A stretch of 53,497 nucleotides of DNA from Candidatus Accumulibacter necessarius (GTDB lineage Bacteria > Pseudomonadota > Gammaproteobacteria > Burkholderiales > Rhodocyclaceae): assembly GCA_017302435.1 (NCBI GenBank), contig JAFLDL010000034.1:1-53497 (forward strand), read 5' to 3'. The first letter of the stretch is position 1, and each line of letters starts with the position of its first letter. This document shows positions 4,173 through 25,988 of this stretch, in pieces. Below the pieces are notes generated by a model. It was given only the letters and a program-made list of their open reading frames with translations. It had not been told where the DNA came from and searched no databases. The translations under genes were made by a program, and so were the position numbers.

Positions 4173-4927
4173 ACGCCTTGATCAGCCACCTGGGGCTTGG
4201 CCTGAGCCTGCTGACCGCTTGCGCGACTGCCCTCGCCACGCCTGCCGCGCCGCCCTCTGCCGCCTGCAAGGGGACACTCTACCTGACCTTTGACACCGGC
4301 AACATGCGCCACGCCGACCTGATCGCCGAGACGCTGGCGAGGCATGGCGTCAAGGCGACCTTCTTTCTCGCCCAGGAAAAGACCAGCCGCGGGGACCATG
4401 CGCTTGACGCCAGCTGGGCGCCTTACTGGCAGGCGCGCGTCGCGGAAGGCCACGCTTTTGGCAGCCACACCTGGCGGCACGGCAGCTTCCGTGAGGATAT
4501 CGGCAACCAGGTCCGCTACCGGCTGCCGGATGGCGGCAGCGAAAACATGGACGCGCGGGCCGTCTGTGGCGAGTTGCAGCGCCCCGATACGCGCTTCCAG
4601 GAGTTGACCGGCCGTCGGCTCGATCCCCTGTGGCGCGCTCCCGGCGGTCGCACGACGCCGAACACGCTGGCCGCCGCGCAGGCCTGTGGCTACCGCCATG
4701 TCGGCTGGGCGGCAGCGGGTTTTCTGGGTGATGAACTTCCCTCCGAGACCTACCCCAATTCGCTGCTGCTGAAGCGCGCCTTCGAGCGTCTGAAGGATGG
4801 CGACATCGTCATGGCCCATCTCGGCATCTGGTCGCGCAAGGATCCCTTTGCGCCGATGCTGGACCCCTTGATCGCTGGCCTGAAAAGCAGAGGCTTCTGT
4901 TTTGCGGCGCGGCGCGCGCAGCCATGA
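4169..4927 (+). CDS. Polysaccharide deacetylase family protein, exported
   Basis: This 252-residue protein has a signal peptide (residues 1-23, LGLSLLTACATALA) and a NodB/CE4 deacetylase fold. Motif 1 reads LTFDTGNM (about residues 39-46). The first Asp is kept but the usual second Asp of TFDDG is Thr. Motif 2 is GSHTWRH, giving the metal pair H-x3-H. Motif 3 is the WRAPGG loop, and a late MAHLGI could provide the catalytic His. The enzyme would remove acetyl groups from N-acetylated sugars in the periplasm, or act as a related amide hydrolase if the altered motif 1 changes its chemistry. The ATG overlaps the stop of the propeller gene, and its own TGA overlaps the next start, so translation of the three is probably coupled. 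Confidence 0.85.
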   Translation: MNALISHLGLGLSLLTACATALATPAAPPSAACKGTLYLTFDTGNMRHADLIAETLARHGVKATFFLAQEKTSRGDHALDASWAPYWQARVAEGHAFGSHTWRHGSFREDIGNQVRYRLPDGGSENMDARAVCGELQRPDTRFQELTGRRLDPLWRAPGGRTTPNTLAAAQACGYRHVGWAAAGFLGDELPSETYPNSLLLKRAFERLKDGDIVMAHLGIWSRKDPFAPMLDPLIAGLKSRGFCFAARRAQP

Positions 4928-9774: not shown

Positions 9775-11097
9775 CTAGCGCAAGACAAACGCCTCCTGAT
9801 GAAAAGTCAGCCGCCCGCGCCAGGCCGCTCGCAGGCCCGCGCGCAGCGCCTCGGCGAAGCCCTGCGGGCCGCAGAACCAGACCTCGGCAGGCCGGGAGCG
9901 ATCCTTGCCGGAAGCCAGCTGGTCAGCGGTGAGTTCCTCACCCTGCCGCAAGCCGTGCACCTGCAGCCGGATGCCGAGAAGCGGCGCGCACAGGGACTCG
10001 ATCCGGGTGACGAAGGGATCGACGTCGCGGTCGCCAGTGCAGTAGTGCAGCTCGGCAGCCGGGGCATCATCGGGCCGCGCCTGCAGTGATTCGAGCCAGG
10101 CCAGGAAGGGCGTGACGCCGATCCCGCCGGCGACCCACAACTGCTGCGCCCGCCGGTCCTGGCGCCCGATGTCGAAGCGCCCGTACGGTCCCTCGACACG
10201 CACCGGTTGACCGGCCGCAAGGAGCGTGGCAAGGCTACGGGTGTAATCACCAAGCGCCTTGATCTGGAAAGAAAGCTCCCGATCGCCGCGGTCGGCGCTG
10301 GCTATCGTGAACGGATGCGCGCCCTCGTGGTCGGCGAAACTGACGAACGCGAACTGGCCGGGTCGATGTCCGGGCCAGCGCTGATCGAGGCGGCAGCGCA
10401 CGGCGACGACATCGGGAGCCGACTGGCCGACGGCAAGGACTGTCCCCTGTACCTGCCGCGAGCGACCGATGCGCCCGCTCAGCGACAATACGCTGCCGTA
10501 GACACCGCCGGCGATCAGCAGCGCCAACAACCCACCCACTGGCTGTCCCCAGTACGAGGCCGGGGCGAGAAAGACGGCATGAAAAGCGAGCGTCAGGTAG
10601 AGAATCGGCATCAGCCGATGCAGGAATCGCCACATCCGGTACGGGAAGCGCTACCAGAGCGTGATCAGCAGCATCACCAGGAGGACGTAGATCGCCCATT
10701 CGCCGAGGTCTTCCGCCACGTCGCGCAGCACCTCCAGGAAGCCGTTGAACTTCTCCTTCGGCACGCGTCCCTGGCGACCGATGAGGGCCTTCAGCAGGTC
10801 GCCCGACATCTCGATCAGCCAGTGCAGTGCGGCGAAGGCGCAGGCCAGGATGCCTGCCCACTTGTGGCTGCGATAGACCCGGTCCATGCCGCCAAGCGGC
10901 ACTTCGAGCCACACCGGACGACTCGCCAAGAGCATTGCCAGCGACGTCAGGACGATCGATAGCAACCCGCTGAGGTAGAGCCCCTGCTGACGCAGAATCC
11001 ACAGGGGGGCGGCGCCGACCGGAGCGGCGACGCCCAGGGCATGCCAGCCCCAGGCCAGCGAGACAAGAGTGACGAGCAAGGCGAGAACGGTTTTCAT
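9775..11097 (-). pseudogene. Ferric-reductase-like cytochrome b / FAD-NAD(P) reductase broken by an amber codon
   Basis: Read as one frame from the ATG at 11097, this is a 440-codon member of the ferric reductase-like family (COG4097). Residues 1-148 carry four or five membrane helices and possible haem ligands in SHKWAGIL and ALHWL. Residues 155-200 hold two more helices. The rest is a ferredoxin-reductase domain with an FAD motif (HPFTIAS), an NAD(P) loop (WVAGGIGVTPFLAW) and a C-terminal WFCGPQGF. A TAG (10651-10653 on this strand) interrupts the frame between LITLW and RFPYR, exactly where the two open parts (10651-11097 and 9775-10635) would join without any frame change. The natural codon was probably AAG or CAG. 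The gene would deliver electrons across the membrane to the c-type cytochromes whose remnants lie just upstream. Confidence 0.8.
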
Positions 11098-11122
11098 GGC
11101 GGGAAACTCCGGTTGGTTCGGT

Positions 11123-11393
11123 CAGCAGGCCGCCGCCGGCGGACAGGAGCGAGGGCGGCGTGCTCGTCCAGTGCTCATAGTCGCCGCGCTCGGCATGGGC
11201 GTGGCAGGCAGTCGCCCTCGGTGCGCGGGTCGCTCGAATGGCAAGTGCCGCAGGCGGGCGTCGCCGGTTTGCCGCCGGCAAACAACTGGCGGTGGAAGGT
11301 TTCGCCGCGCGCGGCGGCTGTCGCGGTGGCCGTCGTCGCGGCGGGGGCCGGTCGGATTGCCAAGGCCAGTGGCGAGACTTTTTGACAGGTCAT
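11123..11393 (-). pseudogene. Fused remnant of SHP (DUF1924) and diheme cytochrome c genes
   Basis: From the ATG at 11393 the frame gives a signal-peptide start (MTCQKVSPLALAI) and then a stretch typical of SHP/DUF1924 monohaem cytochromes, GETFHRQLFAGGKPATPACG. It includes the haem motif CGTCH at 11238-11252. The frame stops at 11175. At about residue 63 the similarity jumps, one frame away, to ACHAHAERGDYEHW, which looks like the C-terminal haem site of a diheme cytochrome c (DHC). The first Cys of that CxxCH is lost at the junction. This is what a deletion from inside SHP to near the end of DHC would leave. The reductase gene starts 25 bases further on, as in known SHP-DHC-cytochrome b operons. 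A functional cytochrome is unlikely. Confidence 0.65.
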
Positions 11394-11523
11394 GGTCGGG
11401 CCCTCGGTGATTGGATATGCCGCCACTCTGCCCTGGGGTCGCTGAACCATTGCTGAAGCGCGTGTTCATGCTGCGTTCAGCAACTCAGGCGAAAAAGGAC
11501 GCATGATGTGTTCGGCTGTCGCC
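11360..11523. repeat. 164-bp direct repeat, copy A (divergent promoter of the cytochrome locus)
   Basis: This segment aligns without gaps to 23231-23394, offset 11,871 bp, with about 146 of 164 positions identical by eye. It contains the start of the SHP/DHC remnant, its upstream region and the tandem CTGAA boxes. The repeat ends where a cyclic-nucleotide-binding remnant begins. Confidence 0.9.
11442..11457 (-). promoter_or_regulatory. Tandem CTGAA-N6-CTGAA operator, copy A
   Basis: Two CTGAA half-sites are 11 bp apart centre to centre (11442-11446 and 11453-11457), about 50 bases upstream of the cytochrome remnant start. QseB/PmrA-type regulators bind direct repeats of this spacing (for example CTTAA-N6-CTTAA). 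An OmpR-type regulator gene lies beside the second copy of this promoter. Binding is inferred. Confidence 0.5.
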
Positions 11524-11695
11524 GCGGTATTTTTTTCCGATACCGAGCTTTACGTGCTGTCGCGCAAGGTCTTCACTCTGCTGGCCGAAAATCACAAGAA
11601 GTTCGCCCTGAACCTCACGGAGGGAGGGAGAGGCCAGCATGCTCGCCCGCCGACTGCGCTATAGCAAAGCCAAGTTGCGGGTGCTGCAGTCCTGA
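11503..11695 (+). pseudogene. Remnant of a cyclic-nucleotide-binding (Crp-like) protein, C-terminal end
   Basis: From the ATGs at 11503/11506 a frame reads AVFFSDTELYVLSRKVFTLL and AENHKKFAL, like the end of a cNMP-binding beta-barrel and its exit helix. The frame then shifts near 11620-11635 and continues as MLARRLRYSKAKLRVLQS with a TGA at 11693-11695, which matches the usual C-terminal helix of such single-domain proteins. The N-terminal two thirds are missing and the frame is broken, so it is a relic. It abuts the right edge of repeat copy A, so the break may date from the rearrangement that placed the signalling block here. Confidence 0.5.
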
Positions 11696-11762
11696 GGCGC
11701 AGCAGGATTACGTCTGTCTGAACTCGTGGCTTCCGGCCCTCGCCGGGCTGACGCGTGGCATA

Positions 11763-12422
11763 CTACGGCGAATCGTGAGCGGGCAGGAACTCAATGGTCA
11801 AACGTACCAGTTCGGCGACGGATCCGGCCTGCAACTTTTCCATCATCAGATGTCGATAGGTCTCGGCAGTGCGCTGGCTTATGCCCAGGTCGTGGGCAAT
11901 GGTCTTGGTCAGCTTGCCTTCAAACACGCCTTGCAGCACTTCTTTCTCGCGTGGCGTCAGCAAAGCCATCCGTTCGCCGATGGCCCGGCTCCTGGCCTGT
12001 CTGTGGCTTCGCGCTTTGTCGATGCGCAGACCATCCTGGATGCGATCCAGGACCTGTTGCGGGGCAAAAGGCTTCTGGAAGAAATCCAGCGCGCCGCCGC
12101 GCATCGCGCGGACCACCGACGGCACCTCGGGATAGCTGGAAATGAAGATCATCGGCAGGTCGATCTCCTGGTAGCGTAGTTCGTCCTGCAGTTCGAGACC
12201 ACTGGTACCAGGCATGCGCACATCGGCGACAATGCAGCCGGTCAGTAACGACAGGTCCTGCCGAAGAAATGCGCTGGCATCACTGAAGACAACATAGGGC
12301 AGATGCACCGACTCGACGAGGTCGGCCAGAATAAAGCTGATCACCGGGTCGTCGTCGATCAGATAGACTGTTGGAGACAACATGACCGAGTTCGCACTAG
12401 GTATCGATTTGTTAAGTGTCAT
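11763..12422 (-). CDS. FixJ/NarL-type response regulator, orphan
   Basis: The protein has a receiver domain (LIDDDPV with the acidic pocket near the N-terminus, phospho-acceptor Asp in VADVRMPGTSG, Ser/Thr in IFISSY, Lys in FFQKPF). A LuxR-type helix-turn-helix follows (LLTPREKEVLQGVFEG, then DLGISQRTAETYRHLMMEKL). This is the FixJ/TtrR architecture: phosphorylation by a sensor kinase exposes the DNA-binding domain. The start is uncertain. I use the ATG at 12422 (219 residues); an ATG at 12383 (MLSPTVYLIDDD) would give the tightest receiver domain, and a TTG at 12440 is possible. No kinase gene of the matching type is adjacent, so the partner may be one of the hybrid kinases nearby or lie elsewhere. 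Confidence 0.85.
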   Translation of the reverse strand: MTLNKSIPSANSVMLSPTVYLIDDDPVISFILADLVESVHLPYVVFSDASAFLRQDLSLLTGCIVADVRMPGTSGLELQDELRYQEIDLPMIFISSYPEVPSVVRAMRGGALDFFQKPFAPQQVLDRIQDGLRIDKARSHRQARSRAIGERMALLTPREKEVLQGVFEGKLTKTIAHDLGISQRTAETYRHLMMEKLQAGSVAELVRLTIEFLPAHDSP

Positions 12423-12641
12423 GGGTGCTGGTGCGTGCAATGCTCTGGCTGTTGGGGGACAAGCGTGTCAACTACGTAGACGCCGCAGTTCGCCGCGCAA
12501 CTCCCGGAGGCACAATATATATCCTTCTTGGTAAATTGGGAAACCTCCGGGCTCAGAAGTCAGGAGTCCGTATTTGCCGCGCCTGCACCGGTCGTCGTGG
12601 CGCGCCCTCAAACCCACTATCTACCAGCTTCCCACCGAGAC

Positions 12642-13709
12642 ATGGCCAACAAGATCAAAGTATTGATCGTCGATGACTCGGCCGTAGTGCGCCAGGTCAA
12701 TCGCGAGACCCTGGAGCGCGAGCCCGACATCGAGGTCATCGGCGTCGCTGCCGACCCACTCTACGCGCTGGACAAGATGAAGGTGCAATGGCCGGACGTG
12801 CTGGTCATCGACATCGAAATGCCGCGCATGGACGGCCTGACCTTCCTCAAGAAGATCATGAGCGAGCACCCGACGCCGACCATCGTGTGCTCCTCCCTGG
12901 CCGAGCAGGGCGCCAGTGCCACCATCGATGCCTTGGCAGCTGGTGCACTCGCCATCATTACCAAGCCCAAGGGCGGGGTAAAGCAGTTCCTCCGGGATGC
13001 CAGCAACGACCTCGTCTCGGCTGTACGTGCCGCCGCGCGCGCCAACATGCGCCGCGTCACGCCGGGTGCGGCCCCACCGCCCAGGCTCACGGCCGACGTC
13101 ATGCTCGCCGCACAGGTAGCCAGCACCCGCGCCATGGCAAACACCACCAACCGGGTGGTAGCCATCGGCACTTCCACCGGCGGCACCCAGGCCCTGGAAG
13201 CGGTACTAACCCGCCTCCCCAATGTCGGCAGCGGCATTGTCATCGTCCAGCACATGCCGGCGAAATTCACCGCGATGTTCTCCGAGCGCCTCAACGCCCT
13301 GTGCAAGCTGGAAGTACGCGAAGCGCGGAACGGCGACCGTGTCATGCCCGGTCGTGCGCTGATCGCACCCGGCGGCCGCCACATGATGTTGAGGCGCAGC
13401 GGCGCGCAGTATTACGTCGAAGTTGCCGATGGCCCGCTGGTGAACCGGCACAAGCCCTCGGTCGATGTCCTGTTCCGTTCCGTGGCACAGATCGCCGGTC
13501 GCAATGCGCTGGGCGTGATCATGACCGGCATGGGCGACGACGGCGCGCGCGGCATGAAGGAGATGCACGACGCCGGTGCGCAAACCGTCGCCGAGGACGA
13601 ATCGACTTGCGTCGTGTTCGGCATGCCGAAAGAGGCCATCAAGCTCGGTGGAGTGGAGCGGGTGGTGCCGCTCCATGGAATCCCGTCCGAGATCATCGCC
13701 TACGGATAA
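12642..13709 (+). CDS. cheB: Chemotaxis response regulator, protein-glutamate methylesterase/deamidase CheB
   Basis: This 355-residue protein resets chemoreceptors by demethylating or deamidating their glutamyl side chains. The receiver domain (1-125) has DD at 11-12, phospho-acceptor Asp57 (VIDIEMP) and Lys in TKPKGG. After a linker, the methylesterase domain carries the catalytic triad: Ser178 in GTSTGG, His204 in VQHMPA and Asp300 in MTGMGDDG. I chose the ATG at 12642 because it begins [13 protein letters not shown], as usual; the frame is open further upstream without family similarity. All key residues are present, so the enzyme looks functional. No cheA, cheR or receptor gene is in the window; a CheD remnant follows in the same frame, and a CheW remnant lies at 19038-19268. 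Confidence 0.95.
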
Positions 13710-13973
13710 GAGACCAGGCGACCCATCGACCATGACCCCGGGGAAGTTGAACGCCGCGCCCGGAACATCAATCCGGGAGGCTGGACGGTCGAAACCGAGC
13801 CCCCCATCGCCACCCTGCTCGGCTCCTGTGTCGCGGTCTGCCTGTACGACGCGAAGCTGCGTCTGGCCGACCTGAACCATTTCCTGCTGCCCAGCCGCAG
13901 CCTCGCGTCGACCCGGCCCGTTCAGCAAATGCTCTCCGACACGGAAAGTGCCTTCTGCGCGCCATGCGGATGA
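13710..13973 (+). pseudogene. cheD: CheD remnant (chemoreceptor glutamine deamidase), N-terminal third
   Basis: Immediately after the cheB stop, in the same frame, the translation reads INPGGWTVETEPPIATLLGS then CVAVCLYDAKLRLADLNHFL and LPSRS. This is the start of a CheD catalytic domain with its Cys (GSCVAV) and His (LNHFLLP). There is no in-frame ATG; the ATG at 13732 is in another frame. Similarity stops near 13905, where the end of the convergent kinase gene (13922) begins. The tail to the TGA at 13971-13973 is unrelated. Roughly two thirds of CheD, including its C-terminal half, are gone. A deletion joining cheD to the kinase locus explains this. The fragment cannot be active. Confidence 0.8.
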
Positions 13974-16900
13974 GCGAGAAACTGACGCAATTCGGACGCG
14001 GCGTTGTCATAGTCGAAGGCCTCGATACGCGCCAGCAGTTCCCTGGCCGAATCGCCCAGTGCAGCTTGCAGGAGGCCAAACTCGTTCCAGGCGAGATAGC
14101 TGGCCTCCAGGTTGCCTTCGTCGAGCAACTCCGCCAGCCGTGTCAGCACTGCCAAGCACCTTGAGTCGGCGCCGGCCCGGGCGGGGTCGATATTCCCGGC
14201 GGTGGCAAGTCGTATTTTGTTGACCAGGCTTGATAGATCGTCGGTCAGGCTGGTGCAGAGTGAGCCAAGTACCTCTGTTCCCGCGCCACCGTCAAGTGCC
14301 GAAATGAGAGCCTCGACGCTCGTTGTCACGTCACTCGCCCCCAACATGCTGGCGGTGCCCTTCAAGGAATACGCGATGGGTTTGATTGTGTCGAGATCGC
14401 CGAAGGCCACCATTGCCGAAATCTGCGCGGCATACTGCTCGTAGCCGACGACAAACATGACCAGGAGCCGTGAGTACTTGTTCACCTTGCCGCGCATCAG
14501 CGACAGGCCAACGTCTACGTCCAGCCCGGGGATGTCGGCAAGGCGCTGGAACAATTTTGCATCATCGCTGATTGGCGCTGCAGCCGCTTCAGTCGCAACG
14601 ATGGTGACCGGCGCTTCAAGAGCTTTTCTAGGCAGCCATTTCGACAGCATGGCATAGAGGAGCTGGGGATCCACCGGCTTGGAGACGAAATCGTTCATGC
14701 CGACGTCCAGGCAGGCTTGGCGATTCTCGTTCAGGGCGTTGGCGGTCATCGCCAGAATGGGCGTGGCCACGCCGCTGGGCAGAGAGCGAATCGCACGGGT
14801 GGCGTCGAGGCCATTCATCCGCGGCATCTGCATATCCATCAGGATCAGGTCGTAGTGCTTGGAGGAGGCCATGGCAACGGCTTCGACGCCGTCGGCTGCA
14901 CTGTCGGCAGTGATGCCGGCGGCGTGAATCAGTTCCAGGGCCACTTCCCGGTTGACGGGATTGTCCTCGACCAACAGGAGGTGCCAGCCGCCATGATGCT
15001 GGCGCAGTTCGTCTTCTGCGCTATCGGTGGTATCGGCCACATCCGGCTCGGCATGCAAGACGCCGGTACCACGCTCGAAGCAGATGCTGAACCAGAATTT
15101 GCTGCCGCGCCCGACTTCGCTCTCCACGCCCATCTCGCCGCCCATCAGTTCGACCAGGCGCCGGCTGATGGCAAGTCCAAGACCGGTGCCGCCATAATTG
15201 CGTGTGGTCGCGACATCGGCCTGGGCGAAAGGCTGAAACAATACGGACAGATCATCGGCGGCAATGCCAATCCCGGTGTCTTCGACCTCGAAGCGGATCC
15301 GTACCTGATCGCCGTGGTCTTCGAGGAGCCGCGCGCGCAGGGTAATGGCGCCCCACTCGGTGAACTTCACGGCATTGCTGGCGAAGTTAAGAAGGGCCTG
15401 CCGTAGCCGGGTCGGGTCGCCGCGCAACCACTGGGGCACACCGTCAGCCTCTACGCTGAGGGCGAGGCCCTTGGCCTGTGCCAGCTCGAAGATCAGCGAG
15501 CGCGTGTGGTCGAGAATCGATGCCAGAGAAAAGTCGGTCTGTTCCAGATCCAGCTTTCCGGACTCGATCTTCGAGAGATCGAGGATGTCATTGACAATGG
15601 ACAGCAGATGCGCGGCGGCGACGGCGATCCTCTCCAGCTTGCCGGCCTGTTCGGGGGTCGGTCGGGCCTGGCGCAGAATATGGGTGAGGCCGACGATGGC
15701 GTTCATCGGCGTGCGGATTTCGTGGCTCATGTTGGCCAGGAATGCGCTCTTGGCGCGATTGGCGATATCCGCCAGCTGCCGCGCCTCGACCAGTTGCGCC
15801 GTACGGCTGTCGACCAGTTCCTCCAGATGGTGGCGGTGCTGGTCGAGTTCCTTGCCGAGGCGCTGCTTCTCGGTGATGTCTTCCTTGACGGCGACAAAAT
15901 GGGTGACGCGTCCGTCCGCCTCGTGGATCGGCGTGATGATGACGAATTCGACGTAGTCGCTACCATCCTTGCGCCGGTTGAACAAGACACCCTTCCAGGG
16001 CTTGCCCTGGCTGAGATCGGCCCACATGCTCTCGAATGTTTCGGGCGGTGTCCGGCCCGATTGCAGGATTCTGGGGTTCTTGCCGAGCGCTTCTTCGCGG
16101 CTGTAACCGGTGTTGCGCACGAAAGCTTCGTTCACGTACACGAGGCGCGCGTCAATGTCGGTAATGACGATGCTTTCGGGGCTTTGTTCGACAGCCATGG
16201 AAAGCATGCGCAGCGATTCGGTAGACCGTTTGCTCTCGGTAACGTCGCGTGCAACGCCGAACACGCCGTTCAATTCACCCTTCGCATCAAGCAGCGGACC
16301 CAGGGTAGTGCGGAGTGTCAAAAGCCCGTTTGCGGTGGTGAGGCACAGTTCGCGGGTCAGGGTGCGCCTATTGGTCATTACCTCTTGGTCGGCGGCCGTC
16401 AGCATCGCCGCCTCCTCGGGAGGAAACAGATCCGAGCATTCCTTTCCCAGCACGTCCTGTTCGGCCTTGCTAAACAGTTCGCAGGCCGCGCGATTGAACA
16501 GCAGGTAGCGGCCATGCATATCCTTGATGAACATGACGTCGGCGGTGCCCTTCGCAAGGGCAGCGAGCGTTTGCAGGGCGCGCAGTTTTTCGGTCTGGAT
16601 CTGGTGCTCGCGCCGAATTTCCACCATGTACCACCGCTGCCGCAGGATCATGGCTCCGGCGATCGTCGTGAATATCGCCAACAGCCCCGCCAGAACAATC
16701 CACAGGAAATCGCGCCAGGCTTGCGCGAATATCTCGCCCCGATCCAGCTTGGCGAGCAGGAACCAGTCGGTGCCAGGTATCGCTCTTACAGCGCCCACCG
16801 CCGGCACGCCGCGGTAGTCCAGGCCTTCGAACGCGCTGCCGGGTTTGATTTCGCCGCGCAGCACCTGGGCGGCGAGCAGGCTTTTCGTGGCGATCGGCAG

Positions 16901-17866
16901 GCGTAGCAAGCCTTGAGCGTCAGGCTCATGGCGCAATCGGTTGAGGTACAGCACCTGATCGCCGCGGCGGCGGAAGAGCAGGGTTTCTGCGCTCGAGCTG
17001 GGCACCGGCCATTTCTGCAGCAACGGAGTCAGATAGCCCGCCGGGTTGACGTTCAGGATGATGATCGGGCTGGGCCCGCCGCCCGGTACGGGAAGACTGG
17101 CGGCAAAATTGAGGTCCAGTTCCCCATTGGCCGTTCCGAGTGAGACTATCAAGGGACTTTCTCCGGAGGCGACGGCCTGGCGAGCGTCGTTGAGCAACTC
17201 CGGGGCGACACCCGGGGTTTGGCCGCTCGATCCGCGCAGTGGTTCGCCCTGCTCGTCGAGCAACACTACCTTCTCATAGCCCTTGCTCATGCCGAATTGT
17301 CCAAACCGTTCAAGCAGCCGGTCGCGACTGGCGCTGTCGCCACGCTCTCGCCAGTTGCGGTAAAGTTCGGTCAGCAGGCGACTGGATTGTAAAAAGGCGA
17401 CGTCGCCCTGCCTTTCCTCCAGCCAGGCTTTGATCTGCCAGGCCTTGAGATCGGCGATGGATTGCAGGCGCGCGACCTCCGTTTGCTTGTGACGGCTGAA
17501 GTTGTAGCCGATGGCCACTGCCGTCAGGCCGGCGATGACCACGCAGGCCAGCGTCACGGGCGGCCACAAAGAGTGTCGGGAAACGGGCGCCGGTGGGTCC
17601 CCTGCGGGACCCATCCAGTTGCGCATCATCATGTAAAGCAGCAGCGAGGTGAGCGCAATAAAAGCCCAGCCCTTGAGCGTATTGGCGATGGCGACCAATG
17701 CCGGGTCGTGCAGCAGCCATTCGACGGCCCGGTCGGAAAGCAGAATCCACAATGCACCGAATACGGCGTAGCCGAGGACCAATGCAAGCGGATTGGTAAT
17801 GACCGCGCGCGGATTGAGCTGTGACGGCTTCACGGGTGCGTTCCGTACGTGTTTTGAAGGTCGCAT
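13922..17866 (-). CDS. Large membrane hybrid sensor histidine kinase with altered Hpt domain
   Basis: This 1314-residue protein has membrane helices near residues 25-50, 60-85 and 100-122. A periplasmic sensor region (about 125-385) and another helix (about 388-410) follow, then two PAS domains (about 425-545 and 550-675). A HisKA domain carries phospho-His715 ([10 protein letters not shown]). The HATPase has its N, G1 and G2 boxes ([22 protein letters not shown]). A receiver has Asp1011 (LILMDMQMP), and a C-terminal Hpt-like region ends the protein. In the Hpt motif the phosphorylatable His is replaced by Tyr1166 (IAYSLKG, codon TAT at 14369-14371). The second kinase at 20016-22940 has the normal AHTLKG. 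Relay through this Hpt should be blocked. It lies 29 bp downstream of the HD-GYP regulator gene, probably in one operon, and its 3' end overlaps the CheD remnant. Confidence 0.9.
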
Positions 17867-17895
17867 GGTTTAAGGTCGCATTAGCAGGCCATGGT

Positions 17896-19041
17896 TCAGC
17901 GGCTATCCATGTGCTTCGCGGCGATCGCGGCGAATTCCGCGAAGCCCGAGAGGAACGCGTCGGTCACATCGGGATCGAACTGGCGGCCGCGCTCTGCGGC
18001 GATGATCGCCCGTGCCTCTTCGGCGGGCATGGCGTCCTTGTAGACACGCTTCGAAATCAGCGCATCGAAGACGTCGGCCAGAGTCATCAGCCGGGCGGAG
18101 ATGGGTATCGCTTCTTCCGCCAGGCCATCCGGGTAGCCCTTGCCATCCCAGCGCTCGTGGTGCCAATGGGTGACTTCCTTGGCCAGCTTCAGAAACTCGA
18201 CCGGCTGGTCGATATCCCGCTCGGCAAGATCGATCGCTTCGCTGCCCAGACGGGAATGAGTCTTCATGATCACCCACTCGTCCGCGGTGAGCTTGCCGGG
18301 TTTCTGGAGGATGGAATCGGGAATGCCGACCTTGCCTATGTCGTGCAAGGGCGCGGAACGGGCCAGCATCCTGATATAGGCCTCATCGAGCGTGGCGGCG
18401 AAACGGGGATGCTCCCGCAGGCGAATGGCCAGCAGTTGCACATAGCCCTGGGTGCGCAGGATGTGGTTGCCGGTCTCGGGGTCGCGGGTCTCGGCGAGAT
18501 GGGCCAAGGCGCGGATACTGACGGTCTGGATCCGTTCGTTTTCTTCCATGCGCCGGGCAACCTCCGTTTCCAGCATCATGTTCTGGTCGCGCAGCCAATT
18601 CTGCGCCAGACTCGCGAGCAACTGGCTGCGCACCCTGGCCAGCACCACGTCAGGCTTGATCGGCTTGGCGATGTAGTCGGCCGCGCCGTGCTGAAAACCC
18701 CGCTCCTCGTCGCGCGAATTGTCGAGGGCCGTGAGAAGGATGACCGGAATGTCCCGGGTGGCCAGGTCCTGTTTCAGCGCGGCGAGGACCTGATAACCAT
18801 TCATCTCCGGCATCATCACGTCCAGCAGGATCAGCGCCGGCCGTGGTTCCTGAGTGGCATGACGCAGCGCCGTCCGGCCCGAGGTGGCGATCCTGACCTG
18901 ATAGCCGGACTGATGCAGGAGCTCGCCGAGCACGCTCAGATTCGCCGCGATGTCGTCGACGATCAGGATCAACGAGCCATTCACCGCATCGATGGTTAAC
19001 GTCGGCGTTCCCATTGCCGTCGGTCTCGGGTCGCTGTTCAT
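17896..19041 (-). CDS. Response regulator with HD-GYP output domain (c-di-GMP phosphodiesterase)
   Basis: Residues 25-145 are a receiver domain (LILIVDDIAANL, phospho-acceptor Asp in LILLDVMMPEMNG, Thr in ILLTAL, Lys in YIAKPIKP). After a helix-rich linker comes an HD-GYP domain of about 190 residues with LHDIGKVGIPD, the HHERWDGKGYPDGL signature and the metal-binding His/Asp residues between them. Such proteins cut cyclic di-GMP to pGpG or GMP when phosphorylated. The length (381) is usual. Its ATG at 19041 overlaps the stop of the CheW remnant, and the membrane hybrid kinase starts 29 bp downstream of its stop. The kinase is therefore the likely phosphate donor through its HisKA/receiver pair. 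Confidence 0.93.
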   Translation of the reverse strand: MNSDPRPTAMGTPTLTIDAVNGSLILIVDDIAANLSVLGELLHQSGYQVRIATSGRTALRHATQEPRPALILLDVMMPEMNGYQVLAALKQDLATRDIPVILLTALDNSRDEERGFQHGAADYIAKPIKPDVVLARVRSQLLASLAQNWLRDQNMMLETEVARRMEENERIQTVSIRALAHLAETRDPETGNHILRTQGYVQLLAIRLREHPRFAATLDEAYIRMLARSAPLHDIGKVGIPDSILQKPGKLTADEWVIMKTHSRLGSEAIDLAERDIDQPVEFLKLAKEVTHWHHERWDGKGYPDGLAEEAIPISARLMTLADVFDALISKRVYKDAMPAEEARAIIAAERGRQFDPDVTDAFLSGFAEFAAIAAKHMDSR

Positions 19042-19268
19042 TCGGCCGCGCCGCCCTCCTCGCTGCGCTCCGCCATCGTTGCCAGCGAGGCGATCTCATC
19101 GACCGAGAGCACCTTCTGGATGTCGCGGATGATGACGAACTTGCCACCGACTTTGCCCATGCGCTGGATGAAGTCGGCGCGTATCTTTGCGCCGAAGGCC
19201 CGCCTTGGTAAGAAGTTCGAGATGGACAATATCGTCGCCGCATCGTCAAACAGCATGTTTGTGCTCAT
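19038..19268 (-). pseudogene. CheW C-terminal remnant fused to a short unrelated start
   Basis: The last 55 codons read AKIRADFIQRMGKVGGKFVI then IRDIQKVLSVDEIASL, the C-terminal strand and helix of CheW coupling proteins (compare 'KV-GKFVIILDVDKVLS'). The N-terminal 20 or so residues from the ATG at 19268 (MSTNMLFDDAATILSISNFL) do not match CheW, and the first two SH3-like lobes are missing. The stop overlaps the start of the HD-GYP gene, so the fragment keeps its old operon position and may still drive translational coupling. Together with cheB and the CheD remnant it marks a former chemosensory cluster. It cannot bridge receptors and CheA. Confidence 0.75.
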
Positions 19269-19648
19269 ATTGCCTTTCCCTGTTAAAACGCCGCACACCC
19301 AAACGAAGAATCGACAAGACCGAGTTGCGGGAGGTGCGCGCCACGTTGAAGGCAATAGTCTCAAAGCAGCAGCCTGTTGTTTATCCGTGCCTTGCGCGAC
19401 AAACTGCGGTATCTACGTAGTGCTTCACCGAAACCCCATTCTTCGAGCAAGTCCAACAAAAAAATTCTTCCATGCATATTGTCGGCAATTCCTCCCACCA
19501 CCATGCCCTATGGTCATTTTCCCGTGCGGCAAGGTGCAATTTCCCATTGTGCCGACGCGGGAGCCCCGTCCTCCTTCCGCTATGTGGCACTGTACGCACC
19601 GAGAACCTGCCACCTAAACGAGGCCGGTTTGATCACGGCGAGTCGATC
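19269..19648. other. 380-bp low-GC region without a clear gene
   Basis: This stretch separates the minus-strand CheW/HD-GYP/kinase operon from plus-strand genes and probably holds promoters for both. A minus-strand frame at 19425-19613 contains a chance CxxCH (CVQCH) but no other cytochrome feature. Nothing else is recognisable. Confidence 0.5.
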
Positions 19649-19846
19649 ATGCACACCATGAACATTCATGCGGCCAAGACAAAGCTTTCCCGTCTAGTCG
19701 AGCAGATTGCCGCCGGCCAGGAAATCACGATGGTCAAGGCGGGCAATCCATTCTGCGGGTTGCCGTCGCTGTTGCTGGCAAACTGGTTGCCGCGGAAAGC
19801 ACCGCACGGGCAAACTGAAGCGAAATTTGTCCTCCAATCTGCGTAA
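19649..19846 (+). pseudogene. Phd/YefM-type antitoxin gene, probably frameshifted, no toxin
   Basis: The first 37 residues (MHTMNIHAAKTKLSRLVEQI, AAGQEITMVKAGNP) match the DNA-binding N-terminus of Phd/YefM antitoxins. After about residue 40 the expected 'VARLVPL' continuation is lost. The sequence keeps antitoxin-like basic composition only in another frame (GKHRTGKLKRN), and the frame ends at 65 residues instead of about 80. No PIN- or RelE-type toxin gene follows; the hybrid kinase starts 170 bp downstream. I read it as an inactivated orphan antitoxin. It could still bind DNA through its intact N-terminal domain. Confidence 0.6.
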
Positions 19847-20015
19847 GTCCACGCGCAATTGCTCGACCTGAGTGCGCCAGCGCACATACAGCCAAGGAGT
19901 AGACGGTCAGAATCACGCTGGTAACGTTAGGGTGATGTTTAGCGCCGTCGGAGCGAGATCGCAGCCCTTTAACACTCTTGCCTCAGGCGACACTCGATCC
20001 TTAGAGAAATTGGTC

Positions 20016-22940
20016 ATGACTGAGACGCTGTCCGCTCCTCCCGCGCCCGACGAACTCGAAAGAACCTGCGAATTAACTGAGAACAAGCGCCAAGAGGCCT
20101 TGTTGACGACGGGGTCCTTGCAAAACGCGATTTTCAACAGCGCCAATTTCTCGTACATTGCGACGGATGCGAAGGGTGTCATCCAGATCTTCAACGTCGG
20201 CGCCGAGCGCATGCTGGGCTATACCGCAGACGAGGTGGTGGACACGATCACCCCGGCGGACATTTCCGATCCTCAGGAATTGATCGCGCGAGCCAGGGCC
20301 TTGAGCATCGAGTTCGCCACGCCGATCGCGCCAGGCTTCGAGGCTTTGGTGTTCAAAGCGGTACGCGGCATTGAAGACATCTACGAACTGACCAAAATCC
20401 GCAAGGATGGCAGCGGTTTCCCGGCCATGGTCTCGGTCACTGCGCTGCGTGACCCTTACGATGCCGTCATCGGCTACCTGTTGATTGGCACCGACAATAC
20501 CGAAGGCAAGCGGGCGCAAGCACTGGAAAAGCGTTATCGCCGCCTCTTCGAATCGGCTCAGGACGGAATTCTGATCCTGGATGCGGAAACCGGTCTGGTC
20601 GTTGACGCCAATCCGTTCATCACTGAGCTACTCGGCTACTCGCTTGACGACGTTCGTGAAAAGTACATCTGGGATCTGGGCTTTTTCAGGAATATTGCAG
20701 CCAACAAGGACAAATTCCTGGAATTACAGCAGCAGGACTATGTGCGCTATGACGATCTCCCGCTCGAAACAGCGCAGGGAAAGAAAATCCATGTGGAGTT
20801 TGTCAGTAACGTTTATCTGGTCGATCACAATCGGGTGATTCAATGCAATATCCGTGACATCTCGGAACGAAAGGCAGCCGAGGAGAAAATCCAGAACCTT
20901 TCAATGGCTGTCGAGCAGAGCTCGGAGTGCATCATCATCACCGATCTCAATGGCCGGATCGAATATGCCAACGACTCCTTCCTCAAGATCACCGGCTATA
21001 CCAGGGACGATGTTATCGGCCAGAACGTGCGCCTGCTGGGGTCCGGCAAGACGCCGAAAGACACCTACAATGCCCTGTGGAATACCCTGAATCAAGGCCG
21101 AACCTGGCTGGGCGAGTTGATTAACCGGCGCAAGGACGGCAGCGAATACACCGAGGCCGTCAGCATCACGCCGATTCGGCACACCGACGGACGCGTCAGT
21201 CACTATGTAGCGGTAATGGAGGACATTACCCAACGTAGACAAGATGCCGATGAACTGGAGCAGTATCGCCACAAGCTGGAGCATCTGGTCGAGACCCGAA
21301 CGTACGAACTCGAACGAGTCAAGGACGCGGCCGAGGCGGCGAACAAGGCCAAGAGCGAATTCGTGGCCAACATGAGTCACGAGATTCGTACTCCATTGAA
21401 TGCCATCATCGGGCTCACTCACCTGTTGCTGCACGGCAATTCGGACCCGCTGCAAAAGTTGAAGCTGGAAAAGATTGTTGACGCTTCCCAGCATCTGCTC
21501 TCGGTCATCAACGATATTCTCGATTTTTCAAAAATTGAAGCAGGAAAGTTGAAACTCAGTCTCACTGACTTTGTTCTTGAACGCATGCTGGATAACGTCG
21601 TTTCCATGATAGCGCCCAAGGTCCGCGAAAACCAACTGGGGTTTGTCGTGGAACGGGATAAGCTACCCCTGGTTCTGGTCGGTGACTCTACCCGTCTGGC
21701 ACAGGCCCTGCTCAACTATCTTTCCAACGCCGTTAAATTTACCGAACAGGGCAAGATTACCGTGCGCCTGAAAATAGTGGCGGAAACGGCGGACGATCTG
21801 ATGCTGCGTTTCGAAGTCACCGACACGGGTATCGGTATTGCACCGGACAAGATCGCCGGGTTGTTCGCGGCCTTCGAGCAGGTCGATGCCACACCCGCGC
21901 GGCGCTTTGGCGGCACCGGTCTCGGGCTCGCCATCACCTGGCGACTGGCGCACCTCATGGGTGGCGAGACCGGAGCGCATAGCGTTCCTGGCCAGGGCAG
22001 CACCTTCTGGTTTACCTCCCGGCTCGGCAAGAGCAAACTGACCATGGACGACCTGATTGAAGCGCCCGCCACTGCCGAACATGACTTGCAAGCCATGCCT
22101 GCAGGTCGTTACATCCTGTTGGCAGAGGATAACAAGATCAGCCAGGAAATCATGGTAGAACTTCTGACCTACCGTGGGTTGAACGTCGACATCGCCAACA
22201 ACGGTTATGAGGCCCTGGAGAAAGCACGTGACGGCAAGTACGACCTGATCCTTATGGATATGCAGATGCCGGGAATGGATGGCCTGGAGGCGACCCGTGC
22301 CATTCGACTACTGCCCCACCTTGCAAGCACACCGATTCTGGCCATGACCGCCAACGCCTTCGACGAGGATCGCCATGCCTGTCAGGAAGCCGGAATGAAC
22401 GACTTTGTGGCCAAACCGATAAATCCCGATATTCTCTTTGCCGCACTGCTCAAGTGGCTGCCGGTAAGTTCCCCTGCACGTCTGCCCACTCCTGCGCCAT
22501 CGCTTGATCCGGATACGGCCGAATGGGAGCACCGGATTGCGGGTTGTCAGGAGCTGGACATGGCGAAAGGGCTGGCGCTGGTGCGCGGCAACAAGGCGAA
22601 ATATGCACGAGTGCTGGGGATTTTTGTTGATGCTCACGCTCATGATGCGACCCGCATCGCAGAGAAGATGTCTTCAGGTGATCTTGAATCACTCAGGGAA
22701 ATTGCACACACCCTTAAAGGTAGTGCCGGTAGTGTGGGTGCCGTGCGGGTGTCTGGCACGGCAGATCTTCTTCTACGCGCAATTCGTCAAGCCGCCGGAG
22801 CGGAGGAAATCACCGCGTGCTGTACTGCGCTAATCGCTGATCTGACGTCGCTTATCGATTCGCTTCAAGGCCTCCTGAATAGCGCTGATCTTCCGCCAGC
22901 CTTAGCCACACCTCGGTGCGCTTGCCGGTGGTTGCGGTAG
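20016..22940 (+). CDS. Soluble hybrid sensor histidine kinase (PAS-PAS-PAS-HisKA-HATPase-REC-Hpt)
   Basis: From the ATG at 20016 the product has 974 residues and no membrane helix. The frame is open further back, but the upstream part lacks similarity. Three PAS-like domains occupy about residues 35-160, 170-290 and 300-425; the third has the [18 protein letters not shown] pattern. HisKA has phospho-His455 ([10 protein letters not shown]). The HATPase boxes are LSNAVKF, DTGIGIA and FGGTGLGLA. The receiver has Asp748 ([13 protein letters not shown]), and the Hpt domain has a normal His898 ([10 protein letters not shown]). The protein can run a complete His-Asp-His relay to a separate regulator. 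The C-terminus ([11 protein letters not shown]) looks degenerate and may be a readthrough past an older end. GC content is lower than in the kinase at 13922-17866, so the two are not recent copies. Confidence 0.9.
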
Positions 22941-23071
22941 CGCGACGCCCGCGAAGTGGCATCGGTGCAGGATGTTGACATTATCCCGGGCGTGGCCTGG
23001 TTTGGCTATCCGAGGAGATGGATCATGGCAATGCGAGTGAAGCCGGACACTGGCGAGGTAGGCCAGGAAAT

Positions 23072-23264
23072 TTAGGGTACGAGGCTCGACGGCGGGAAAG
23101 TGATGTGGCAACTGCCGCATTCTTCCCTGACGACCTGATCGGCGACCGGCGGGAAATAATGGCCCGCCGGCCTGCGCCCGAGCCAGGACCAGTAGTGATG
23201 TGGCCGCGCTAGCAAGCACCAGCGTGATCGCCAAGGCCAGTGGCGAAACTGTTCGATGGGTCAT
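23072..23264 (-). pseudogene. Diheme cytochrome c (DHC) remnant, frameshifted and truncated
   Basis: From the ATG at 23264 the frame gives a signal peptide (MTHRTVSPLALAITLVLASA) closely like that of the remnant at 11393. After residue 34 the similarity moves one frame over to HYFPPVADQVVREECGSCHI then TFPPSS. This is the N-terminal part of DHC with its first haem site (CGSCH at 23105-23119). A TAA follows at 23072-23074, and a weak continuation (ISWPTSPVSG) suggests more of DHC beyond it. Thus a frameshift and a stop break this copy, and its second haem half is absent. A DHC-like C-terminal haem half survives instead at the other locus (near 11130-11200). Confidence 0.65.
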
Positions 23265-23394
23265 GGTCGAGCCCTCGGTGGTTGCACATGCCGTCACTCT
23301 GCCCGGGGGTCGCTGAACCATTGCTGAAGCGCGTGTTAATCCTACGTTCAGCAATTCAGGCGTAAGAGGACGCATGACGTGTTCGGCTGTCGCC
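23231..23394. repeat. 164-bp direct repeat, copy B (divergent promoter of the cytochrome locus)
   Basis: Gapless match to 11360-11523 (about 89% by hand). On the minus side it leads into the DHC remnant. On the plus side it leads, after 51 bp, into the EF-hand/PepSY/regulator operon. Confidence 0.9.
23313..23328. promoter_or_regulatory. Tandem CTGAA-N6-CTGAA operator, copy B
   Basis: Half-sites at 23313-23317 and 23324-23328 are identical to those of copy A although the surrounding repeat has diverged. The box is about 50 bp before the DHC remnant start and 118 bp before the EF-hand gene, so it could serve both directions. The regulator at 24263 is the obvious candidate protein. Confidence 0.5.
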
Positions 23395-23445
23395 AATGCG
23401 GCGGCGTGGCCGGGACGCTCGCTTGCTTGATATCACGCCAAGGAA

Positions 23446-23874
23446 ATGAACATGCTGAAGAAGACCTCGTGGCTTTTCGCCGGCAGCCTGTGCCTGACTG
23501 CCGGGCTGGCCACTGCCGCTGATCCTGCCCGCTCCAGTCAGACGTTCACGCCACCGCAAGCGTCGGCAGCGCCCGCGGGGACGCGCCCGGCCGGCGGGCA
23601 GGGAATGCAGAGGCCCACCTTCGCCGATTTCGACCGCAACGCTGATGGCCGCATCAGCGAGCAGGAATTCGACGCGACGCGCAGCGAACGAATCGCGCAG
23701 CGGGCCAGCGAAGGTCGGCCGATGCGCGGGTTGGCCGGCGCTCCGTCGTTTGCCGAGATCGACCGGGATGGTGATGGCTCGATCAGCCGTGCCGAATTCG
23801 CAGCGCATCGGCTAGCTGGCCAAAAGGGGCGAGGGCCGGGACAGGGCATGGGTCCGGGTAGCGGCACGCAGTGA
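23446..23874 (+). CDS. Exported EF-hand calcium-binding protein
   Basis: The 142-residue product has a signal peptide (MNMLKKTSWLFAGSLCLTAG, cleavage near TAA-DP at 25). A Pro/Ala/Gly-rich spacer and two canonical EF-hand loops follow. The first is DRNADGRISEQEF (about residues 63-75) and the second DRDGDGSISRAEF (about 105-117). Both have Asp at positions 1, 3 and 5 and Glu at 12, so they should bind Ca2+ in the periplasm. AAGGA precedes the ATG. It is the first gene of a plus-strand operon with a PepSY gene, an OmpR-type regulator and a kinase, in the place where such small periplasmic proteins often tune QseBC/PmrAB-like sensors. The gene itself appears intact although its partners are damaged. 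Confidence 0.88.
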   Translation: MNMLKKTSWLFAGSLCLTAGLATAADPARSSQTFTPPQASAAPAGTRPAGGQGMQRPTFADFDRNADGRISEQEFDATRSERIAQRASEGRPMRGLAGAPSFAEIDRDGDGSISRAEFAAHRLAGQKGRGPGQGMGPGSGTQ

Positions 23875-23891
23875 GCGGGAACACCTGAATC

Positions 23892-24263
23892 ATGACCGGC
23901 ATGCGGCGTCTACTGGTCGGCCTGGTCGTGGCCTCGTCGCTGGCCTGGGCCGGCAGCAGTCGCGCCGGCGGCGACGGGCAGGGCAGTGACCATGATCGCG
24001 CCCGCCAAGCGCTCGAAGCCGGCGAAGTACTGCCACTGCGGACGATCCTCGAGCGCGTAGAGCGCGAGTATCCGGGGCAGGTGCTCGAGGTGGAACTCGA
24101 GCGCGACCGCGGTCACTGAGTGTACGAAATCAAGACCCTGCGCAGCGGCGGTTCACTGGTCAGGCTGAAGGTGGACGCGCGCGACGGCACCATTCTCGGC
24201 GCCAAAGCGCGCGAGGCCGGTGGGGCGCGTGCACAAGGTCGACGTAGCGGCGACGAACACTGA
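23892..24263 (+). pseudogene. PepSY-domain protein interrupted by an in-frame TGA
   Basis: The first 75 codons encode a signal peptide (MRRLLVGLVVASSLAWA) and the first half of a PepSY domain (LPLRTILERVEREYPGQVLE then VELERDRGH). A TGA at 24117-24119 stops the frame, and without any shift the rest of the domain continues: VYEIKTLRSGGSLVRLKVDA, RDGTILGAK. In PepSY proteins a Trp usually stands at this point (G-x-WVYE), so TGG to TGA is the simplest explanation. The full reading frame would end at 24261-24263, overlapping the regulator start (TGATG). A GTG at 24120 might restart translation of a 47-residue piece without signal peptide. PepSY proteins act in the periplasm as protease or sensor inhibitors. 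Confidence 0.8.
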
Positions 24264-25003
24264 TGCGCATCCTGATTGTCGAAGACGACGACATTCTGCG
24301 CCGCCAGCTGATCCAGGGACTGCAGGCGGCAGGCTACGCGGTCGATTCGGCGGCCAACGGCGTCGACGCCCATCACGTTGGCGACAGCAGCCCGTACGAT
24401 GCCGTCGTCCTGGACCTCGGTCTGCAGCAGATCGATGGCCTGACCGTGCTCAGGAAGTGGCGCAGCGCCGGCCGCGACATGCCGGTGCTGATCTTGACGG
24501 CGCGCGATGGCTGGCACGAGAAGGTCGCCGGCATCGACGCCGGCGCCGATGACTATCTGGGCAAGCCCTTCCACATGGAAGAACTGCTCGCCCGCCTGCG
24601 CGCACTGATTCGCCGCGCCGGCGGGCACGCCAGCGCCGAGCTGGCCTGCGGATCACTGACGCTGGACACCCGCAACGGCCGCGCGACAGTCGATGGCCAG
24701 GCGTTGTCGCTGACCAGCCATGAATACCGGGTGCTGGCCTACCTGATGCACCATCGCGACAAAGTGATCTCACGCAGCGATCTGGTCGAGCACATTTATG
24801 CTCAGGACTTCGACCGTGACGCGAACACTGTCGAAGTCTTCATCGCCCGTCTGCGCAAGAAGCTGCCACCAGGGCTGATCGAGACCGTGCGCGGCCTGGG
24901 CTACCGGCTGACCGCACCCGTAGACGCTCCCGCCAACGGGGAAATCCACCAGCACCGGCTGTGCGGGTCCGGCGGGAACGATGCTCGGCATGATCGAGCG
25001 TAG
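24263..25003 (+). CDS. OmpR/QseB-type response regulator
   Basis: Residues 1-118 form a receiver domain: EDDD at 7-10, phospho-acceptor Asp in AVVLDLGLQQIDG, Thr in LILTAR, Lys in LGKPF. Residues 125-218 form a winged-helix DNA-binding domain (LTSHEYRVLAYLMHHRDKVI, VEVFIARLRKKL, IETVRGLGYRLT). It belongs to the QseB/PmrA/TctD group and is the natural binder of the CTGAA-N6-CTGAA boxes upstream. Family members end a few residues after GYRLTAP. Here the frame runs on for about 25 residues (NGEIHQHRLCGSGGNDARHD) through what should be the end of the gene and start of the kinase, so the junction has probably suffered a deletion. The domains themselves look complete. It overlaps the PepSY frame by TGATG. 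Confidence 0.9.
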   Translation: MRILIVEDDDILRRQLIQGLQAAGYAVDSAANGVDAHHVGDSSPYDAVVLDLGLQQIDGLTVLRKWRSAGRDMPVLILTARDGWHEKVAGIDAGADDYLGKPFHMEELLARLRALIRRAGGHASAELACGSLTLDTRNGRATVDGQALSLTSHEYRVLAYLMHHRDKVISRSDLVEHIYAQDFDRDANTVEVFIARLRKKLPPGLIETVRGLGYRLTAPVDAPANGEIHQHRLCGSGGNDARHDRA

Positions 25004-25988
25004 CGTGCGCCTCAACGACCGCCCAGAGATCGCCTCGCAAAAATTCCGCCTGATCGTCGCCGCTGACGAGCGCCTGATGGTCGAACCGGCGGCAGGTTTC
25101 AACGGCGCGCTCGGGCTGGCCCTCGGGATACTCGCTGCCGGTCTGGTGATCGCCGCGCTGGTGCAGGTGTTCGTCGGGCTGTCGCCACTGCGCACGCTGC
25201 GCGCAGCTGTCGGCCGGGTGCGCAATGGCGATGCGCAGCGTCTCGAAGGTGAATTCCCGGTCGAAATCGCGCCACTCGTCAGGGAATTCAACAGCGTGCT
25301 CGAGCAGAACGCCGAGGTCGTCCAGCGCGCGCGAACGCAGGCGGGCAATCTGGCGCATGCCCTGAAAACACCGCTGAGCGTTCTCGCCAATGCCGCCGCC
25401 GGCGGGGACGGCGCACTCGCCCGGTTGGTGATCGCCCAGGTCGATGCCGCGAAAAAACAGGTGCACTACCACCTGGCGCGGGCCCAGGCGGCCGCCGCGG
25501 CGCGGCTGCCGACAGTGCGCACCGCGCTGCGACCGGTGCTAGAGGGGCTGCTGCGGACGATGCGGCGAATCCACGCGGGGCGGCAGCTCGAACTGCTCCT
25601 GCATTCACTTGCCGAATCCCTGGCCTTCCGCGGCGAGGAGCAGGATCTCCAGGAGATGCTCGGCAACCTGCTCGACAACGCCTGCAAGTGGGCTACCGCC
25701 CGCGTCGAGATTCAGGCCAGCGTCGATGGAGAAAACCTGATGATCCGCGTGGACGATGATGGCCAGGGCATTGCCGCTGCAGCCCGCGATGCTGTACTCT
25801 GCCGGGGCGTTCACGCCGACCAGCAGGTGCCGGGATCCGGGCTGGGCCTGTCGATTGTCGACGATCTGGCGCAGCTCTACGGCGGCGAACTCAGACTGGC
25901 CGATTCGCCGCTCGGTGGCTTGCAGGCAGTGCTGACCTTGCCGGCCGTGAGATCCGGAATGTCGCATCTGAACGCCAACCTGCCCTGA
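24981..25988 (+). CDS. Sensor histidine kinase lacking its N-terminal sensor region
   Basis: The 335 residues contain one membrane helix (GLALGILAAGLVIAALVQVF, about 41-60), a HAMP-like segment (GLSPLRTLRAAVGRVRNGD), and a HisKA-type domain with the His in NLAHALKTPLSVLAN. An HATPase follows with its N box (MLGNLLDNACKWA), G1 (DDDGQGI) and G2 (GSGLGLSIV). Intact PhoQ/QseC-like relatives have an additional N-terminal helix and a periplasmic sensor of about 100 residues before this point. Those are missing, and the regulator frame runs 22 bases into this one. Such a protein could insert but not sense, and might be constitutively active or phosphatase-biased. It could equally be a dead gene. Confidence 0.75.
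   Translation: MLGMIERSVRLNDRPEIASQKFRLIVAADERLMVEPAAGFNGALGLALGILAAGLVIAALVQVFVGLSPLRTLRAAVGRVRNGDAQRLEGEFPVEIAPLVREFNSVLEQNAEVVQRARTQAGNLAHALKTPLSVLANAAAGGDGALARLVIAQVDAAKKQVHYHLARAQAAAAARLPTVRTALRPVLEGLLRTMRRIHAGRQLELLLHSLAESLAFRGEEQDLQEMLGNLLDNACKWATARVEIQASVDGENLMIRVDDDGQGIAAAARDAVLCRGVHADQQVPGSGLGLSIVDDLAQLYGGELRLADSPLGGLQAVLTLPAVRSGMSHLNANLP

Follow-up and report, generated by a model that had tools for sequence, protein, structure and literature searches.

A broken copy of an SHP/DHC cytochrome locus in Candidatus Accumulibacter necessarius, very probably a decaying spare, and a putative operator shared with the intact copy

Organization of the locus

The stretch of DNA analysed here (the window, 53,497 nucleotides) is contig JAFLDL010000034.1 of Candidatus Accumulibacter necessarius, coded C28, from a 4.56-Mb genome in 88 contigs with a stated completeness of 100%. 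Positions 9,775 to 25,988 hold the remains of a divergent locus in which genes for a cytochrome b and the cytochromes DHC and SHP lie opposite genes for an EF-hand protein, a PepSY protein, an OmpR-type response regulator and a histidine kinase. SHP, DHC, cytochrome b and sensor kinase are all broken in this copy, and an intact locus is present on another contig of the same genome. The original prediction, made from the letters of the window, had placed the open reading frames (ORFs), stops, remnants, regulator and sensorless kinase correctly, and its count of at least five lesions corresponds to real differences from intact relatives. The features are listed below; the reference for aligning the remnants was the locus of the relative coded G027, which is of the type that includes an EF-hand gene.

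9775..11097, minus strand: NOX/ferric-reductase-like cytochrome b with an amber at codon 149 (TAG at 10651-10653)
11175..11393, minus strand: N-terminal remnant of SHP fused to a C-terminal remnant of DHC, lacking about 640 bp that are present in G027
11355..11523, minus strand: left copy of a 169-bp direct repeat (SHP start and divergent promoter)
11443..11479, minus strand: left four-pentamer operator, exact match
11763..22940, no strand assigned: sensor block between the repeat copies, with a LuxR-type regulator, CheB, two related hybrid kinases and an HD-GYP regulator
23063..23265, minus strand: N-terminal remnant of DHC joined to the SHP start, with a frame change and an early stop
23226..23394, minus strand: right copy of the 169-bp direct repeat
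23314..23350, minus strand: right four-pentamer operator, one mismatch
23446..23874, plus strand: periplasmic-type EF-hand protein, open, with two EF-hand motifs and a signal peptide recognized by eye
23892..24263, plus strand: PepSY protein interrupted by TGA at 24117-24119
24263..25003, plus strand: OmpR-type response regulator whose C-terminus runs on into the kinase region
24981..25988, plus strand: histidine kinase without its first transmembrane helix and most of its periplasmic sensor, both SK1 motifs being absent

The cytochrome b is read as two ORFs in one frame of the minus strand (11097-10651, 148 amino acids, and 10635-9775, 286 amino acids), and its protein match spans 442 of 442 residues with a single TAG. 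As this amber falls between the invariant histidine pairs H78/H92 and H160/H173, the truncated protein could neither form the heme pairs nor reach the flavin domain. The N-terminal piece of SHP (DUF1924) has its CxxCH at 11315-11250 on the minus strand and is followed at 11227-11175 by the end of DHC. The right DHC remnant keeps the N-terminus and the first CxxCH (23180-23086, minus strand), followed by an alignment gap of two bases and a premature stop; its Pfam DHC match is weak (E 0.015), as are the PepSY matches of the two halves of the PepSY gene (E 0.026 and 0.0056). The reading frame of the regulator extends beyond its usual end. About 330 bp are absent relative to G027 at the start of the kinase, where the end of the regulator is joined to the periplasmic domain and a frame change follows (deletion and frame change near 24918-24980), and kinase homology begins at residue 148 of the 479-residue intact paralog. 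Of RNA families at their gathering thresholds, the window contains one tRNA and nothing else.

An intact copy in the same genome and in relatives

The intact second copy lies at C25:12256-17362 and comprises six genes and no EF-hand gene, with products of 479 (kinase), 220 (regulator), 135 (PepSY), 140 (SHP), 163 (DHC) and 442 (cytochrome b) amino acids. Window and C25 copies are 70-78% identical in DNA over their main shared blocks, and their regulators are 86% identical. The suggestion that a whole electron-transfer branch had disappeared from the lineage is contradicted by this copy: a copy was lost, not the pathway.

A sample of 28 Candidatus Accumulibacter genomes, this one included, was queried with the C25 cytochrome b. 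Close orthologs occur in 24 of the 28, with two in this genome, and weak relatives only in G005, G011, G015 and G018 (in G015, whose completeness is 72%, a regulator/kinase match lies at the end of a contig). The loci of 23 relatives were fetched and read (loci carry L numbers, genomes G numbers), and all 23 have the divergent order cytochrome b-DHC-SHP and PepSY-regulator-kinase, the kinase match of G009 being partial and near a contig end. The predicted order with an EF-hand gene between SHP and PepSY was found in G023 (L055) and G027 (L058), and the other 21 loci have the same order without it. Beyond these, the best 80 named loci were taken from a scan of species genomes, in which several Accumulibacter genomes of the genus sample recur and which judging by titles, with no tally made, are largely from Burkholderiales and Rhodocyclaceae. 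Among these 80, 58 have the complete six-gene locus in the same order and orientation, which bears out the proposal that all parts once formed one divergent locus; the cytochrome genes are indeed linked to the EF-hand/PepSY operon. The remaining 22 are without one or more genes, some at contig ends and others not: SHP was undetected in L180 and L195, SHP and DHC in L240 and L251, DHC and cytochrome b alone were detected in L208, and cytochrome b alone in L196 and L244.

Elsewhere in the genus sample, two genes match in pieces, the cytochrome b of G008 (G008:C45:27088-28408) in two that overlap and the kinase of G003 (L040 3553-5156, G003:C9) in two; these are possibly further broken copies or assembly faults. 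Several members of the genus also carry a second cytochrome b family (L061-L066, 39-45% identical), with no SHP, DHC or PepSY detected nearby.

The duplicated promoter and the sensor block

The window copy is not simply split by 12 kb. The 169-bp direct repeat at 11355-11523 and 23226-23394, which had been missed earlier, is 89% identical between its copies and brings the same promoter segment to both sides of the sensor block. Different pieces were lost on the two sides: the left duplicate retains the N-terminal half of SHP and the tail of DHC, with the roughly 640 bp absent between them, whereas the right duplicate retains the DHC signal peptide and first heme site, most of SHP being gone and the match ending inside DHC. 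For this reason, a simple insertion at one point is ruled out. The simplest reading would be that a stretch from the interior of DHC to the promoter was duplicated around the sensor block and that separate deletions later occurred in each duplicate. The repeat copies are nearer to each other than either is to G027 (82% over 61 bp and 77% over 82 bp), so the divergence from G027 probably came before the duplication.

The sensor genes themselves are not part of the locus in relatives: no such block was found beside any of the 23 loci read, where isolated hits to hybrid kinases, HD-GYP or LuxR-type proteins turned up only in L053, L054 and L059. When nine genomes were searched with the 12 kb, paralogs at scattered places were among the matches listed. 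The hybrid kinases at 13922-17866 and 19872-22940 are inverted paralogs of one another, and G+C is lower (0.54-0.58) in the stretch that holds the latter.

Protein identities and the redox path

The identities of SHP and DHC are secure on sequence grounds. The C25 SHP matches 1dw0 (E 2.8e-30) as a DUF1924 relative, and its CxxCH together with the W, N, C and C residues given in PMC2909971 is kept in 24 of 24 genus loci; DHC matches 2fw5 (E 6.2e-32), with two CxxCH motifs in all 24. For the C25 cytochrome b, Pfam reports Ferric_reduct, FAD and NAD domains and, up to E 0.01, nothing else; its best solved relatives are the SpNOX-like 8qt6 (E 2.5e-27) and 8qq7 (E 2.9e-27), and its two invariant histidine pairs are spaced by 14 and 13 residues. 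Judged by these features, the cytochrome b of the genus is a flavoprotein of the NOX/ferric reductase superfamily; neither Pfam nor the solved relatives place it with the quinone-linked cytochromes b of the formate-dehydrogenase-subunit type. With such a membrane partner, the electron source should be NAD(P)H and not quinol.

On the regulatory side, the C25 PepSY domain is recognized at E 9.7e-9, and the PepSY gene adjoins regulator and kinase in 23 of 23 relatives' loci and in C25, secretion of the protein being judged by eye. All 24 other genus kinases have the sensor motif RSRSLWD exactly and SGVYWQ with one or two mismatches; of 11 further loci tried, 10 have a kinase match, and RSRSLWD is exact in all 10. 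The kinase deletion in the window removes both motifs.

The EF-hand and PepSY proteins had been proposed to belong functionally with SHP and DHC. This holds for PepSY, which is a core part in the relatives' loci read and in the complete named loci. For the EF-hand gene, linkage stands in all four genus genomes that have it (4 of 28), where it always lies between SHP and PepSY, but it is a rare addition: it was found in none of the best 80 named loci and in 1 of 300 genomes of the order, namely this one, in a sample that represents the genus by this genome alone and in which the first pass scored at most 13 candidates per genome. As a general partner the EF-hand protein is thereby rejected; its predicted role is that it may add a calcium input in one lineage.

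A putative four-pentamer operator

The divergent intergenic regions contain a conserved pattern. A TGAAC-N6-TGAAC pair occurs in 70 of the 83 regions used; counted over 74 distinct regions, it is present with at most one mismatch in all 74 and without mismatch in 65, where dinucleotide-preserving shuffles gave means of 1.7 and 0.0 regions, respectively. Two facing TTCA pentamer cores come after the TGAAC pair, giving a whole pattern of 37 bp with 18 fixed bases that is new in this analysis. A genome-wide scan allowing up to three mismatches places it at four sites, two at the C25 copy (divergent promoter, no mismatch; upstream of cytochrome b, one mismatch) and two in the window copy (no mismatch and one mismatch); the reversed-pattern control gave one place. 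The second C25 site lies in the gap between DHC and cytochrome b (L005 7837-7873, C25:15836-15872).

A survey of 104 fetched loci (1.43 Mb, some genomes twice) at up to two mismatches yielded 115 sites, namely 89 in the PepSY/SHP gap (88 loci), 14 in the DHC/cytochrome b gap (14 loci) and 12 elsewhere; the divergent PepSY/SHP pair is likewise present in 88 of the 104. Most of the 12 lie less than about 600 bp upstream of cytochrome b, DHC or SHP with an undetected partner gene, the exceptions being L203 (position 146) and L208. In L235, L241 and L244 (Glaciimonas, Herminiimonas) an exact operator lies about 130 bp upstream of cytochrome b, the only gene of the locus detected there, so this control may act in these loci on the NOX-like gene by itself. 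Allowing three mismatches, the operator was found neither in L061-L066, which carry the second cytochrome b family, nor in a remnant in G027 (L057); the remnant in G005 retains one, with two mismatches. A hairpin was rejected as the sense of the promoter dyad (single-strand fold z -0.63).

The arrangement resembles the BqsR operator of Pseudomonas aeruginosa, TTAAG-N6-TTAAG (PMC4682146), in its direct pentamers with six-base spacing. It differs from that operator in the pentamer TGAAC and in the second, facing pair. The linked OmpR-type regulator would be the protein that binds it.

Age of the decay and two lineages of the locus

To describe the locus as "decaying as a unit", as had been suggested, is an overstatement: open frames persist for the EF-hand gene and for the receiver, DNA-binding and catalytic kinase domains, and the proteins show no accelerated change. 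At otherwise invariant sites the window copy shows 4 changes in 133 (cytochrome b), 2 in 117 (regulator) and 2 in 97 (kinase), which is within the ranges of the other rows (0-6, 0-2 and 0-11, respectively). Likewise, the pairwise dN/dS (ratio of non-synonymous to synonymous change) of cytochrome b is 0.26 between window and G027, 0.16-0.31 between C25 and six relatives, and 0.30 between G027 and G007. Faster protein change as proof of decay was thus not found, and this implies that the lesions are young relative to the divergence of the copies or that some parts are still used.

By their sequences, the two copies in this genome are of different lineages of the locus. In the cytochrome b tree the window copy groups with G023 and G027 (97/97) and the C25 copy with G017, G007 and G025 (82/66); the regulator-plus-kinase tree gives the same two groups (95/88 and 97/97, respectively), and the rpoB tree places this genome with G025, G007, G027 and G005 (89/94). 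G023 and G027 are 82.2% identical in rpoB (2.8 kb) and 92.2% identical over 5.4 kb that coincide exactly with the operon, with no common flanks around it in the stretches read. This difference clearly points to transfer, and the EF-hand type of the locus appears to pass between species. Within G025, a second, very divergent rpoB (L067, G025:C213) fits the 7% contamination figure.

In G027 the situation is the reverse of that in this genome: a shredded C25-type copy (L057 about 4204-4932, G027:C13) stands at the position of the intact locus of G007, its pieces matching at 86-96% plus one short exact piece, and the intact EF-hand-type copy lies on the same contig. This genome and G027 are the two cases in the analysis in which both versions occur together. 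G005 holds an EF-hand-type remnant (L148 7406-10504; G005:C1 about 3.378-3.382 Mb) in which SHP and DHC are broken, the EF-hand gene is open, PepSY is shortened, and a 452-residue ORF that is transposase-like by eye stands beside the first codons of cytochrome b; no regulator or kinase was found in this remnant, and no C25-type copy in G005. The loci of G014, G026 and G021 adjoin the same NUDIX gene and the same gene that we take to be YbiB-like (Pfam gives Glycos_trans_3N) as the window copy does, so that this site may be old. Solitary operators as footprints of an older locus at the YbiB site were rejected, none being present in the 15 stretches of relatives searched (L149-L163).

Discussion

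The window locus is very probably a recently broken second copy, whose decay as a spare would have been allowed by the intact copy on C25. As domains and published relatives suggest, the intact locus would encode a NOX-like flavocytochrome b that takes electrons from NAD(P)H and sends them across the membrane to the diheme cytochrome DHC and then to the oxygen-binding heme protein SHP, a periplasmic PepSY protein that would modulate the SK1-type sensor kinase, and an OmpR-type regulator that would bind the four-pentamer operator in the divergent promoter. In the window, the promoter-proximal part may have been duplicated around the sensor genes, after which each duplicate would have lost the greater part of SHP and DHC by deletion, and cytochrome b, PepSY and kinase would have been struck by stops, frame changes and deletions, all while retention of the C25 copy left the window copy free to decay.

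The intact locus is close to the SHP/DHC/CytB operon with divergent Orf1-RR-SK1 described by Meyer et al. (2010, PMC2909971). The systems share SHP and DHC by sequence, a cytochrome b partner, a divergent regulator with a kinase bearing SK1 motifs, and a small periplasmic protein where Orf1 stands; the PepSY protein is likely Orf1. They differ in the cytochrome b, quinone-linked in the paper and NOX/ferric-reductase-type here, as well as in the additional EF-hand gene and the broken state of the window copy. In Vibrio cholerae, DbfQ binds the sensor domain of DbfS (PMC12714742), and the gene for a small secreted PepSY protein beside an OmpR-type regulator and kinase is common to DbfQ-DbfRS and the present locus. 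The PepSY protein may work on its kinase in the way of DbfQ, although here it faces a redox operon, and in the window both PepSY and sensor domain are broken. The membrane component shares the ferric-reductase transmembrane domain, the FAD and NAD domains and the two histidine pairs with SpNOX, a bacterial NADPH oxidase (PMC11031084; PDB 8qq7, 8qq5). It is unlike SpNOX in being encoded with periplasmic cytochromes, which could accept electrons in place of free oxygen. Literature titles and abstract openings among the matches listed, in which subscription papers are thinly covered, included no NOX-type SHP locus or operator.

Several observations weigh against a decaying spare. Window and C25 are both contigs of the 88-contig assembly and either join could be wrong; window proteins have changed no faster than those of intact copies, so that parts may still serve; the EF-hand gene is open here, as it is in the G005 remnant, which is wrecked in its other parts; the site is common to the G014, G026 and G021 loci though the sequences group with G023 and G027; and the grouping of C25 is weak in the cytochrome b tree. 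Perhaps, then, the window locus is a regulatory remnant, in which the open regulator, sensorless kinase and EF-hand protein act via the shared operator on C25. The open regulator and kinase catalytic domains with so few changes at invariant sites, the operator kept in both duplicated promoters and the high identity of the two regulators would fit this idea, which is nevertheless quite unlikely: PepSY and sensor are broken, the reading frame of the regulator continues into foreign sequence, the regulator has the change P55Q beside what we take to be its phosphorylation site, and young lesions alone would give equal constraint.

It is very improbable that the stops and shifts are assembly or sequencing errors in an intact locus. 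The assembly is a draft and two of the lesions are single-codon changes, but random base errors make neither two distinct SHP/DHC deletions of hundreds of bases and another in the kinase nor a 169-bp promoter duplication with 11% difference between its copies, and the large ORFs of the sensor block and the searched neighbours are open. Loss of the whole branch from the lineage has hardly any chance of being right. It would be true of the window copy taken alone, and G005 has an EF-hand-type remnant without cytochrome b, regulator and kinase and no intact copy found; against it, DHC has its two heme motifs and SHP its W, N, C and C residues in the C25 copy. A bolder picture, which we regard as doubtful, is that Accumulibacter species swap versions of a self-regulated redox cassette with the same private operator and that, when two versions meet, one is dismantled, in a direction that differs by species, the broken copy lingering as an operator decoy or a regulatory remnant bound by the surviving regulator.

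Overall, ordinary decay of a spare copy would account for the window, and the analysis adds to this a variant form of the SHP operon and a sharply defined prediction for its operator. Counts of broken genes made without a search for a second copy would wrongly call the pathway lost, and the window illustrates the death of a spare cassette of this kind. From the intact relatives emerges a version of the SHP operon that would be fed by a NOX-like flavocytochrome and not by a quinone-linked cytochrome b, and the precision of the predicted operator makes its regulon and its signal directly testable.

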